A stretch of DNA of 64,000 nucleotides from Streptomyces sp. NBC_00461 (GTDB lineage Bacteria; Actinomycetota; Actinomycetes; Streptomycetales; Streptomycetaceae): positions 3,257,001 to 3,321,000 of the forward strand of contig NZ_CP107902.1 of the NCBI RefSeq assembly GCF_036013935.1, given 5' to 3'. Position 1 is the stretch's first letter; each line of letters opens with the position of its first letter. Below are positions 45,469-52,909 of this stretch, one piece after another. The position numbers and the translations under genes were made by a program. The notes under the pieces were generated by a model. That model was not told the DNA's origin, ran no database searches, and saw only the letters and a program-made list of their open reading frames with translations.

Positions 45469-48339
<2,871 letters not shown>

Positions 48340-48752: not shown

Positions 48753-50102
48753 ATGAACGCTCGTCGTAGTAACACCTCGCTCCCCAAACCGGGCCGGTCG
48801 GCCTACGGGGTGGCCTCGGCTGTCGTACTGCTGCTGATACCCGTCGTCGTAATACTCGGAGGCGACTGGCTGCAGCAGTTCCTGAACTTCGGTGCCGGCG
48901 TCCTGTCGCTCGTCTGTCTCACCTGCTCGGTGATCTGGGGCCTGGTGGCCCAGGACCGGCTCGTCCTCAACATCCGCCAGCGCATCGTCGCGCAGGGCAT
49001 CCACCGGGTGACCGCCGTCGCCTCGATCGCGTTCCTGTTCATACACATCGGGGTCAAGCTCGCGCTGGACCACGCCGACTGGGTCGCGGCCCTGCTCCCC
49101 TTCGGCTGGCTCTTCTCGGGCACCGGCGGCGCCAACCCGGGCAGCGCCACCCTCATCGGCATGGGTTCCCTGGCCGCGTACCTCATGATCTTCGTCGGCA
49201 TCACCGGCGCGCTCCGCAACCAGTTCGCCTCCCCGGCGCCGATCGCGGCGCGCTGGCGTGCCATGCACATGCTGGCCTACCCGGCCTGGTGCGCGGCGCT
49301 CCTCCACGGCCTGTTCGCGGGACGGCCGGCGAAGACGTTCTTCATGGTGTCGTACGAGCTGTGCGTGGTCGCGGTCGCCGCGGCCCTCGCGCTGCGTGCG
49401 GCGCCGCGCCCGTTCAAGCGCAAGGTCGCCGACCGCCTCGCCATGATTCTGGGCAACGAGCCGGGGTCCATCCGTGCCGAGGAGCTCGAAGCGAGCCGCG
49501 CGCGCGTCGCCGAGGGCTCCTCCGCACTGCCCGGCTACGAGAACAGGCGGGCACCGAGGCAGTCCGTCACCGACACCGGAAGCATCCCGACGGCAGCCCC
49601 CTCGTACGACGCCCCGGCCTCGCGCACCATGTCCCCGGAGCCCTCGAACGGCTTCGCGGCCGCCTACCGCGCCGTCACTCCCCAGCAGCGTGGACAGCAG
49701 CCCTACGCGGCCGACCAGACCGCGCGCATGGACATGCCCATGGACATGCAGTCCACGGAGGCGATCCCGCGCATGGACGGCGGCGGCAGCACCTCGGGGA
49801 GCTGGCCGGTCCCCCTGCCCCCTCCGGTCGGCGAGGCGCCCCCATCGGCGTACGACCCGATGCAGGACACCGGATACAACATCCCGGCCTACGACAATTC
49901 GGGCACCGCTGCCTATCGCAACAGTGATGTGTACGACACCGGTGAGACGAACACCGGCTACGCCACGTACAACCAGAGCGACACGTACAACCAGAACGGC
50001 ACGTACAACAGCGGTCCCGCCAACGAACCATCGCCCGGTGCCTCGTACGACGCACCGGGTTCGGGCGAACCTTGGAACACGCCCTCCGGAGGCTATAGGT
50101 GA
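48753..50102 (+). CDS. Bis-heme ferric-reductase-like membrane protein
   Basis: A 449-residue protein with five to six membrane helices in the first 210 residues. Two helix pairs of histidines, His 84/His 98 and His 162/His 175 (14 and 13 residues apart), match the bis-His b-heme ligation of the ferric reductase/NOX transmembrane family. The C-terminal half (about 215-449) is predicted disordered, rich in Pro, Ser and Tyr (DTYNQNGTYN), and has no FAD/NAD domain. The ATG at 48753 opens the protein after an upstream non-coding stretch. Its stop overlaps the GTG of the NuoF-like gene by 4 bases, which strongly suggests the flavo/iron-sulfur protein is its electron partner. Confidence 0.88.
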   Translation: MNARRSNTSLPKPGRSAYGVASAVVLLLIPVVVILGGDWLQQFLNFGAGVLSLVCLTCSVIWGLVAQDRLVLNIRQRIVAQGIHRVTAVASIAFLFIHIGVKLALDHADWVAALLPFGWLFSGTGGANPGSATLIGMGSLAAYLMIFVGITGALRNQFASPAPIAARWRAMHMLAYPAWCAALLHGLFAGRPAKTFFMVSYELCVVAVAAALALRAAPRPFKRKVADRLAMILGNEPGSIRAEELEASRARVAEGSSALPGYENRRAPRQSVTDTGSIPTAAPSYDAPASRTMSPEPSNGFAAAYRAVTPQQRGQQPYAADQTARMDMPMDMQSTEAIPRMDGGGSTSGSWPVPLPPPVGEAPPSAYDPMQDTGYNIPAYDNSGTAAYRNSDVYDTGETNTGYATYNQSDTYNQNGTYNSGPANEPSPGASYDAPGSGEPWNTPSGGYR

Positions 50103-51712
50103 ACGAGGCCCTGCCCGACGTCCCGGAAGTCCGCGTGGTCGGCCTTCCGCAGCTGACGTCTGGCTTCGACCTTGTCGAAAGACTCGATCTGTCCATGCAC
50201 CTCAAGGTGCACGGGCCACTCGAACCCCTGGGCGGCGAGCAGCTCGCCAAGCTCGCCGAGAACATCAACCTGAAGGGCCGCGGCGGCGCGGGCTTCCCCT
50301 TCCACAAGAAGCTGCGCTCGGTCGCCGAAACGGCGATCAAGCGCGGCGTACGGCCCGTCGTCGTGGTCAACGGCAGCGAGGACGAGCCGGCCTGCCGCAA
50401 GGACACGGTGCTGATCAACCGTGCCCCGCACCTCATCCTGGACGGCGCGCTGCTGGTCGCGGAGGCGCTGGGTGCCCGCACGCTCGTGGTGGGGGTCACC
50501 CGTGAGTCGACGCAGCGCTCGATGGAGGCCGCGCTGGCCGAGCGCGGCCTGAGCAACGGACGCCGCTCCGCACTGAAGGCCTGGGTCCAGCGCAACCCGG
50601 TCCGCATGGTCACCGGTGCCGCCGCGTCGCTGATCCGCTCCATCGACGGCGGCCCGGCGATCCCTCCCGGCCGCAAGGTCAGCGCCTCCCAGAACGGTGT
50701 GGGCGGCGCACCCACCCTGCTGTCGAACGCCGAGACCTTCGCGCAGTTGGCGATCGCCGCCCGCATCGGCCCGGAGCGCTACGGCAACACCGGTCTGTAC
50801 GACGAGCCGGGCACCGTCATGCTGACGGTCTCCGGCGCGGTCGCGCGCCCCATGGTGATCGAGGTCCCCACGGGTGTCCCGCTGCGCTACGTCCTCCAGC
50901 TCGCCGGCGCCCCGCCGGTCCCGCAGGGTGTGCTGACCGGCGGCTACCACGGCAAGTGGATCGACGCGGCGACGGTCAACGAGGCGATCGTCTCCCGCAA
51001 CTCCCTGGACGCGGTAGGCGGAGCGCTGGGCGCCGGCGCGATCCTGCCGATCACTCAGGAGACCTGCCCGCTGGGCGAGTCGCTGCGCGTGGCGCAGTGG
51101 CTGGCGGAGGAGAGCGCGGGCCAGTGCGGTCCCTGCTACCTCGGTCTGCCGGCCGCCGCGCGCGGCATGGCGGACATTCTGGGCGGCGGCGGCCCGGCCG
51201 CCCTGGAGGCGCTCAAGCAGGTCGCCAAGAACGTGAAGCGGCGCGGCGCCTGCTCGCACCCGGACGGCTCCGCGATGTTCCTGGAGTCGACCATCAAGGC
51301 GTTCACCGACGACCTCGCCGCGCACGTCCTCGGGAACGGCTGCGGACGGCCCGTGGAGGGGGTTCTGCCGCTCTTCGAGGGCGGCCAGATGCCCGCGGGC
51401 ATCGCGGGCGGCGGAGAGCCGGAGGAGAACGGCCCCAGCCGCCAGAAGATCTACGTGGACTGGACCCTGTGCCGCGGCCACGGCCTGTGCGCCGACATCC
51501 TCCCCGAGGTGTTCGAACTCGGCGCCGACGGCTTCCCGACCGTCGCCCAGGCCCAGGTGCCGCGGTACGCGGAGGCGAAGGCCCTGCGCGCGGTGCGCCG
51601 CTGCCCGGCACTCGCCCTGCGCATCGAGGAGGAGACGGCGCGCGACCGGGCACCGTCCCGCAACCTGCCGGTCCTCTCCCAGGGCCGCGGACGGCGCGCG
51701 CTGGGCCGCTGA
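50099..51712 (+). CDS. NuoF-like flavoprotein fused to a C-terminal 3Fe-4S-type ferredoxin
   Basis: A 537-residue cytosolic electron carrier. Residues 60-67 GRGGAGFP match the FMN loop of complex I NuoF; an SLBB domain (about 245-270) follows. The NuoF NADH motif CGEETAL is replaced by VTGAAASL (about 171-178). The N3 cluster region reads ESAGQCGPC (A340, C343, C346) with C385, so one ligand Cys is Ala. Residues about 450-510 form a ferredoxin with C458-x5-C464 and C502-P. The GTG start has GGAGG upstream and overlaps the bis-heme gene by 4 bases. Likely role: passing electrons to the membrane hemes. It probably cannot use NADH in the normal way. Confidence 0.88.
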   Translation: MNEALPDVPEVRVVGLPQLTSGFDLVERLDLSMHLKVHGPLEPLGGEQLAKLAENINLKGRGGAGFPFHKKLRSVAETAIKRGVRPVVVVNGSEDEPACRKDTVLINRAPHLILDGALLVAEALGARTLVVGVTRESTQRSMEAALAERGLSNGRRSALKAWVQRNPVRMVTGAAASLIRSIDGGPAIPPGRKVSASQNGVGGAPTLLSNAETFAQLAIAARIGPERYGNTGLYDEPGTVMLTVSGAVARPMVIEVPTGVPLRYVLQLAGAPPVPQGVLTGGYHGKWIDAATVNEAIVSRNSLDAVGGALGAGAILPITQETCPLGESLRVAQWLAEESAGQCGPCYLGLPAAARGMADILGGGGPAALEALKQVAKNVKRRGACSHPDGSAMFLESTIKAFTDDLAAHVLGNGCGRPVEGVLPLFEGGQMPAGIAGGGEPEENGPSRQKIYVDWTLCRGHGLCADILPEVFELGADGFPTVAQAQVPRYAEAKALRAVRRCPALALRIEEETARDRAPSRNLPVLSQGRGRRALGR

Positions 51713-51814: not shown

Positions 51815-51824
51815 CCAAGTCCTG

Positions 51825-51897
51825 TGGAGCTAAGGAGAATTGAACTCCTGACCTCCTGCATGCCATGCAGGCGCTCTACCAACTGAGCTATAGCCCC
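51825..51897 (-). tRNA. tRNA-Ala (anticodon GGC), copy 1
   Basis: A 73-base cloverleaf: acceptor arms GGGGCTA/TAGCTCC plus discriminator A, D-arm AGCTCAGTTGGTAGAGC, anticodon stem CCTGC/GCAGG with loop ATGGCAT (anticodon GGC), T-arm GGAGTTCAATTCTCC. The 3' CCA is not encoded. Identical to the copy at 52837. Confidence 0.97.
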
Positions 51898-52830: not shown

Positions 52831-52836
52831 GATCTG

Positions 52837-52909
52837 TGGAGCTAAGGAGAATTGAACTCCTGACCTCCTGCATGCCATGCAGGCGCTCTACCAACTGAGC
52901 TATAGCCCC
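52837..52909 (-). tRNA. tRNA-Ala (anticodon GGC), copy 2
   Basis: Sequence identical to copy 1 over the whole 73 bases, including the ATGGCAT anticodon loop. No encoded CCA. Flanking sequences differ from those of copy 1 except for a few bases. Confidence 0.97.

Follow-up and report, generated by a model that had tools for sequence, protein, structure and literature searches.

Two overlapping genes of Streptomyces sp. NBC_00461 probably encode a transmembrane electron wire of the ferric-reductase or MsrQ-like kind, in which a membrane cytochrome would be fed by a soluble protein built on a NuoF-like module. They lie in a stretch of 64,000 nucleotides (positions 3,257,001 to 3,321,000 of contig NZ_CP107902.1, forward strand) that was analysed as a whole and is called the window here, in a genome that is a single contig of 10.37 Mb. 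A preliminary description of this DNA, made from its letters alone, had proposed a coupled path from a cytosolic flavin and iron-sulphur protein to hemes in the membrane: two genes with a four-base overlap, the first for a ferric-reductase-type membrane protein without a flavin or NAD domain, the second joining a NuoF-like flavin module, an SLBB domain and a ferredoxin, with no Nuo genes nearby. These elements were confirmed and the path itself is supported by what follows; the cofactor content, the donor, the direction of flow and the docking of the two proteins are what we infer.

The two genes form a conserved unit. In a sample of 150 genomes of the genus, the NuoF-ferredoxin gene was found in 115 and the membrane gene in 116; both are present in 113 genomes, neither in 32 and one alone in five (two and three, respectively), a co-occurrence far beyond chance. 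The membrane gene stands directly upstream, on the same strand, at 131 of 145 NuoF-like places (145 of the 148 NuoF-like rows were counted, two extra fragments in G407 and one in G246 being left out, as were five second halves of split membrane genes). Such conserved adjacency is what the preliminary description had named as support; it had also named two refuting results, genes separable in most genomes and histidines not conserved, and neither was found. In a broader sample of 296 genomes of the phylum, a relative of the NuoF-ferredoxin protein occurs in 26 (E<=1e-40) and one of the membrane protein in 42 (E<=1e-3).

All four domains of the NuoF-ferredoxin protein scored over their cut-offs, and its ferredoxin is of the single-cluster type (Fer4_15). 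The NuoF part is modelled well, with 10-residue blocks from 31 to 420 nearly all above 90 in the predicted local distance difference test (pLDDT), and its model resembles chains of NuoF, NfnB and HydB, with about 2-3 Å over roughly 385-420 columns for the best of them. The nicotinamide site of Aquifex aeolicus NuoF contains the acids E95, E97, D103 and E184 (PMC6560083), and the first three correspond to E94, E96 and D102, kept in 65/65 rows, when residues are matched by motif spacing without aligning the A. aeolicus protein. Cys323, Cys343, Cys346 and Cys385 are likewise invariant (65/65). No further Nuo gene was recognised beside the NuoF-ferredoxin gene and the canonical nuoF of the same genome lies 2.5 Mb away (G000:C1:5839166), which rules out a Nuo operon fragment; chance open reading frames (ORFs) are ruled out by conservation and coupling, and a phage origin by the fact that neither protein matches PHROGs.

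For the membrane protein, an AlphaFold model built with 72 sequences (mean pLDDT 65.6) gives six membrane helices, at residues 16-35, 38-66, 74-106, 129-157, 162-189 and 195-216. Four histidines are invariant, H84 and H98 on the third helix and H172 and H185 on the fifth, as are P116 and W168 (72/72 rows each); some rows of the second set of 71 used for the histidines come from overlapping loci. The preliminary description had two bis-histidine pairs, 84/98 and 162/175: the number of histidines and the first two positions stand, the other two are in fact 172 and 185, and each heme would be held across two helices, with predicted b-heme sites at H84/H172 (inner) and H98/H185 (outer). This inner and outer placement follows from a topology with both termini inside. 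Lysines and arginines number 4 ahead of helix 1 and 5 past helix 6, whereas the loops after helices 3 and 5 contain 0 and 2 of them and the short ones after helices 1, 2 and 4 contain 0, 1 and 0; in the modelled topology these charges favour cytoplasmic ends, an argument that hangs on the ends themselves.

The assignment to a family comes chiefly from relatives. PF01794 (Ferric_reduct) was matched at E<=0.01 by 70 of the 72 members of the alignment, and two of three further relatives scanned singly passed its curated cut-off. The window protein has no Pfam or NCBIfam match over cut-off and showed neither a flavin nor an NAD domain. Among solved structures, the profile of the alignment is matched best by 8qta/8qt6, a bacterial FAD-binding FR-type protein (E 0.008, 47 positions) that we take to be SpNOX, and Foldseek places NOX5, STEAP1, STEAP2 and the phagocyte NADPH oxidase within the first eight matches of the model, with probabilities of 0.96-1.00 and E-values of 0.05 to 0.34 for NOX5, STEAP1 and STEAP2. 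A PDB search with the single membrane sequence returned spurious low-complexity matches only. The protein is thus probably of the ferric reductase domain kind, though barely within reach of detection. About half of it is a disordered-looking tail of ~220 amino acids modelled with low confidence, which is 46-70% identical in five near orthologues, against 61-81% for the membrane part. Feature coordinates are collected in Table 1, where the 32 rows of the overlap are the window and 31 close relatives, read at the NuoF start.

Table 1. Features of the gene pair (positions in the window)
Feature	Position	Strand	Evidence or remark
Membrane cytochrome gene (MEM)	48753..50102	+	ORF, ATG start, 449 amino acids plus stop; six predicted helices, long tail
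His84 codon, inner-heme ligand (inferred)	49002..49004	+	H in 72/72 rows; 71/71 in second set
His98 codon, outer-heme ligand (inferred)	49044..49046	+	H in 72/72 rows; 71/71 in second set
His172 codon, inner-heme ligand (inferred)	49266..49268	+	H in 72/72 rows; 71/71 in second set
His185 codon, outer-heme ligand (inferred)	49305..49307	+	H in 72/72 rows; 71/71 in second set
Low-complexity C-terminal tail, predicted cytoplasmic	49443..50099	+	pLDDT mostly <55 past residue 260
GTGA stop/start overlap (translational coupling)	50099..50102	+	Identical four bases in 32/32 rows
NuoF-like/SLBB/ferredoxin fusion gene	50099..51712	+	ORF, GTG start, 537 amino acids; Foldseek best match 9mqx_B, E 5.4e-31
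Nuo51 FMN-binding module, residues 55-217	50261..50749	+	PF01512, E 3.5e-30
SLBB domain, residues 242-273	50822..50917	+	PF10531, E 6.8e-7
Cys323 codon, invariant	51065-51067	+	Alignment columns
N3-like iron-sulphur region; Cys343, Cys346, Cys385 kept, Ala340 for canonical first Cys	51086..51325	+	PF10589, E 4.2e-16
Ferredoxin domain, CRGHGLC...CP (Cys458, His461, Cys464, Cys502)	51449..51625	+	PF13459, E 5.1e-15

In the mechanism that we propose, a cytosolic donor, most likely NAD(P)H, would give electrons to flavin mononucleotide (FMN) in the NuoF module, from which they would pass through an atypical N3-like iron-sulphur site to the fused CxxHxxC ferredoxin domain. This domain would dock on the cytoplasmic face of the membrane protein, and the two b-hemes would carry the electrons across the membrane, first the inner (H84/H172) and then the outer one (H98/H185). 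The outer heme would reduce an extracytoplasmic acceptor, and a lipoprotein of the SCO0930 type encoded next door may serve as such in a sister branch.

Several observations weigh against this wire. No recognisable acceptor gene adjoins the window pair. The membrane model has a predicted template modelling score (pTM) of 0.56, the window protein itself gave no PF01794 match at E<=0.01, and the Foldseek matches of the model are weak, none reaching E<=0.001, with unrelated folds interspersed and a BAR-domain protein second; the ferredoxin domain of the fusion is also modelled with low confidence. Fourteen of the 145 NuoF-like places had no upstream membrane-gene match. Some of these are contig breaks: in G303, G342, G373 and G402 the membrane gene is on a different contig from the NuoF-like gene. 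The locus is decayed or badly assembled in G246 and G407, and in G381, G410 and G413 apbE lies 0.7-0.9 kb upstream, with room for a sub-threshold membrane gene. Four genomes (G343, G353, G376 and G380) hold a NuoF-like copy without a membrane-gene match at E<=1e-8, and the last exception (G393) has no assigned cause.

Further difficulties arise within the NuoF module. At residues 174/175, in the region of E184, Ala is found at each position in 33 of 35 window-type rows (the best homology matches, nearly all close orthologues), so that the use of NADH by the window's own protein appears less certain. Residue 174 is Glu in 15/15 sister-type and 57/64 apbE-type rows, and since L013, ~73% identical to the window protein, keeps this first Glu, its loss looks recent. 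Secondly, one canonical N3 cysteine is missing from the family. The first N3 position is Ala in 35/35 window-type rows, Ala in 14 and Ser in 1 of 15 sister-type rows and Ala in 57 and Ser in 7 of 64 apbE-type rows, a frequency partly built in for the wider-family loci by the patterns used to scan for them ([EQ][SG]A[GR]QCGPC and RGACxHPDG); a tblastn-derived set of 58, gathered without the N3 motif and free of that bias, has Ala in 52, Cys in 5 and a gap in 1 at position 340. The canonical NuoF of the same genome has Cys at this first position. The four-cysteine site SCGxCxPC...C is thus absent from the window protein, which scores 161.9 bits against TIGR01959 (nuoF; cut-off 558.65). Cys323 is a candidate replacement ligand by its conservation; the genome's canonical NuoF has Cys there too.

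Relatives of the pair form a larger family of cassettes. A scan of named genomes gave at least 561 relatives, and the figures that follow come from the best 80, ranked by likeness to L021 rather than to the window protein; they derive from Actinomycetota and from metagenome-assembled genomes (MAGs) labelled Dormibacterota, Chloroflexi and, in one case, Acidobacteriota. A membrane gene lies upstream in 75 of the 79 loci with >=900 bases there, a ferredoxin downstream of the NuoF-like gene in 79/80, and apbE upstream in 64/80 (58 of the 73 with >=1.9 kb upstream). The ferredoxin is in an ORF separate from NuoF in 79/79 cassette loci, and in the 78 where the pattern was found the variable CxxHxxC residue is H in 45, F in 13, R in 10, Y in 7 and another in 3. 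The window's genome holds such a full cassette as a paralogue at 8.289-8.293 Mb (G000:C1:8289298-8292151; L067 7027-10667, minus strand), with a small protein ending in TTGAS, apbE, a cytochrome, a NuoF-like protein and an own-frame ferredoxin; among the best 80 its nearest DNA matches, at 77-82% identity, are in Streptomyces hygroscopicus, S. canus and S. triticisoli.

Within this family the window pair is probably a reduced branch, in which the ferredoxin was fused, apbE and the small protein lost and the long tail gained. A tree of 109 NuoF modules unites all 27 rows of the window and sister types (Shimodaira-Hasegawa-like approximate likelihood ratio test, SH-aLRT, 99), has a single apbE-type row as their neighbour (97) and, when rooted on nine outside rows, places this group among the apbE-type rows (split 98). 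As the three backbone forks above have support of 89-90, nesting inside the apbE-type family is likely on this tree, short of proof. Helix 1 of the membrane protein may be an addition too, since four full-length apbE-type membrane proteins are only 200-236 amino acids long and start at the window's helix 2, and helix 1 is covered by 7/71 rows (trimmed to the matched part). Near the window pair there is no match to PF02424 or PF04205, and 37 of the 113 genus genomes holding both genes show no apbE (PF02424) match anywhere, so the window branch needs no flavinylation and may have an acceptor other than a flavinylated protein; these genomes rule out that flavinylation is indispensable to the pair. 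A PF04205 FMN-binding partner was also rejected, none being near the pair in 51 genomes (the closest on the same contig is ~78 kb off, in G092).

Other extracytoplasmic neighbours occur in a sister clade of ten rows, where a relative of one lipoprotein directly follows the NuoF-ferredoxin gene at 10/10 loci (L245-L250, L252, L253, L259 and L260). PF03640 was present in three of three copies scanned and SCO0930_lipo (NF040526) over cut-off in the single copy scanned; no PDB relative was found at E<=1. By rough clustering, in which neighbour families were read on L246 only, this clade also has a PucR-type regulator nearby in 9/10 loci, DUF1996 in 8, DUF4142 in 5 and a sigma factor in 4. The PF03640 lipoprotein was rejected as a partner of apbE-type cassettes, none being found by phmmer in 80 loci. 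In G204 (L069 10099-11579) a thioredoxin-like protein and a weak, under cut-off match to a DsbD-type membrane protein directly follow the pair. Because extracytoplasmic neighbours differ between branches, a modular acceptor for one wire would fit. Since apbE or a gene for a small anchored protein or a lipoprotein stands beside the pair in relatives, the system likely includes an extracytoplasmic partner, and to call the electron path self-contained, as the preliminary description did, is too strong.

The same neighbours bear on the foremost alternative, that the pair is a two-subunit ferric reductase or an NADPH-oxidase-like enzyme whose acceptor is a small outside molecule such as ferric iron or O2. 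The resemblance of the membrane domain to NOX and STEAP, the lack of a recognised partner gene adjoining the window pair and the persistence of the pair in genomes without apbE would all agree with it; sister branches, however, keep an adjacent small anchored protein or the SCO0930-type lipoprotein (10/10 loci in one clade), and we regard this alternative as possible but rather unlikely.

A reversal of the flow is improbable. The membrane protein would then oxidise menaquinol or an outer donor, and the ferredoxin and NuoF modules would deliver electrons to NAD(P)+ or to a cytosolic enzyme. Two-heme membrane proteins can indeed work in either direction; flow from NAD(P)H to b-heme is downhill, however, and NOX and STEAP run outward. 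The relatives, moreover, combine the module with apbE and putative extracytoplasmic proteins, and these too speak for outward flow. What inward flow has further in its favour is that ferredoxins of the CXX?XXC [3Fe-4S] type span -340 to +230 mV, the histidine type being more positive (PMC6237146).

We give just as little credence to the proposal that the main partner of the NuoF-ferredoxin protein is cytosolic, for instance a cytochrome P450, the membrane protein being a tether or a drain only: it draws on two loci without a membrane gene, L102 and L103, where a P450 gene and acyl-CoA dehydrogenase genes, respectively, are found within about 6 kb, and against it stand the adjacency of the membrane gene at 131/145 and 75/79 places and the four invariant histidines, from which heme transfer appears to be under selection. 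L102 and L103 encode more distant NuoF-like proteins. In L103 a small ferredoxin directly follows the NuoF-like gene, with the acyl-CoA dehydrogenase genes beyond; in L102 a ferredoxin and the P450 gene are ~5-6 kb from it. These NuoF-like proteins are perhaps unusual reductases for enzymes of the P450 or acyl-CoA dehydrogenase type, on neighbour lists that are rough, as are those of the sister clade, since the ORF caller misplaced starts and genes in high-GC loci.

The transmembrane wire can be extended to the full cassettes through the small protein encoded directly upstream of apbE, which has ~100-190 amino acids, one hydrophobic helix and a tail rich in Pro, Ser and Thr. In 44 of these ORFs, Arg and Lys number 247 ahead of the helix and 42 after it. 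The exact C-terminus [ST]G[AG][ST] occurs in 32 of 58 testable apbE loci (for instance L163 1784-2221, L164 1895-2266 and L182 1997-2338), a lower count, since a looser pattern was tried first and at least L195 was missed. Ten loci have instead an ending of the form Cys...SG...Cys (L191 2044-2343, L194, L196, L201, L203, L207, L212, L215, L217 and L218), five of these coming from MAGs with Acidimicrobiales or Acidimicrobiaceae in the title, and in 12/58 no ending was found by the pattern used. Over all 2957 ORFs of the apbE loci the strict ending occurs 37 times, the background rate of 5 in 2911 ORFs being taken from the same loci. No Pfam match over cut-off was found in ten small proteins scanned, one of them of the Cys form, and no NCBIfam match over cut-off in nine.

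Because this ending resembles the [S/T]GA[S/T]-like target motif of ApbE (PMC8238504), the tip of the tail is a candidate flavinylation site in a protein without an FMN-binding domain. Three findings count against it: in 22 of the 32 strict endings the middle pair is Gly-Gly instead of Gly-Ala, such a small ORF also occurs at 3 of 12 loci where apbE had no match, and all 53 ApbE proteins lack a hydrophobic stretch at the N-terminus, so that ApbE looks cytosolic; with the tail predicted outside, it would have to be modified before export. We tentatively suggest, with somewhat less assurance than for the wire itself, that an undescribed flavinylation system, with FMN on the tail tip of a small protein, has the window pair as a stripped branch. 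In the full form, a cytosolic ApbE would put FMN on the extreme C-terminus [ST]G[AG][ST] of the one-helix protein, and the flavin, borne without an FMN-binding domain on the tip of a flexible, disordered outer tether, would take electrons from the outer heme. The Streptomyces branch would have dropped flavinylation and changed its acceptor, to the SCO0930-type lipoprotein in one clade.

Compared with known systems, the membrane protein shares with MsrQ (YedZ), NOX and STEAP membrane helices with two bis-histidine b-heme sites, predicted in its case. The known donors of these proteins are a fused FAD/NAD domain or a flavin reductase, whereas that of the window pair would be the NuoF-ferredoxin protein. 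The latter has in common with NuoF, the 51 kDa subunit of complex I, and with HydB and NfnB the FMN module, the SLBB domain and the fold of the N3 region, and it differs from NuoF by its C-terminal ferredoxin and a nuoF score below cut-off, as its family does by Ala or Ser at the first N3 position. Histidine-type CxxHxxC ferredoxins have been isolated as [3Fe-4S] proteins that give electrons to P450s (PMC6237146); the window's domain shares their CxxHxxC...CP motif but forms part of a NuoF fusion, and its link is to a membrane cytochrome rather than to a P450.

The closest likeness, by description, is to the MsrQ-like flavinylation systems. Genes for MsrQ-like and NuoF-like (PF10589) proteins were reported in 31 flavinylation clusters, with NAD(P)H as the proposed cytosolic donor (Meheust 2021, PMC8238504). 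The shared arrangement would be a two-heme membrane protein of the PF01794 type adjoining a NuoF-like protein with PF10589; MsrQ-like clusters in general are broadly conserved in Actinobacteria (PMC8238504), and a 2024 mSystems paper treats two-heme cytochromes of this kind. Those systems are defined by a nearby flavinylation gene, whereas the window pair has none nearby, and in the available part of the 2021 paper a ferredoxin is not mentioned for the 31 clusters, whereas that of the window pair is fused to the NuoF module. The window pair is thus a shortened version of a family whose outline had been predicted. The preliminary description knew of no characterised system of this composition; that it lacks precedent is not supported, since such clusters were described from genomes in 2021, though not as a characterised enzyme. 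In the literature, covered in part, we found no experimental study of the pair and no mention of a link to the ferredoxin or to the lipoprotein, of the fused branch without apbE, of the altered N3 site or of the small tail-tip protein.

If the proposed wire is correct, aerobic actinomycetes would be able to pass electrons from a reductant in the cytosol to the outside of the cell, through a pair present in three quarters of the sampled genus genomes (113/150). ApbE enzymes without a known substrate are an open question (PMC8238504), and the wider family suggests where some of them may find their target. A NuoF fold working with an altered N3 site would also inform the evolution of that iron-sulphur relay.

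Two further copies deserve mention. L254 (G343:C1:137813-139390) is a second NuoF-ferredoxin copy, 93% identical and near a contig end, with no upstream membrane-gene match. In L258 (G246:C1:181000-194000), at the leuS locus, the NuoF-like gene is split across frames and there is no membrane-gene match, either by decay of the pair or by an assembly error. In the window itself, the pair adjoins an ORF assigned from its translation as leucyl-tRNA synthetase-like (45469-48339, minus strand); SCO2571 is the leucyl-tRNA synthetase of S. coelicolor. Just 3' of the pair are two tRNA-Ala (ggc) genes, ~1 kb apart (51824-51897 and 52836-52909, minus strand).

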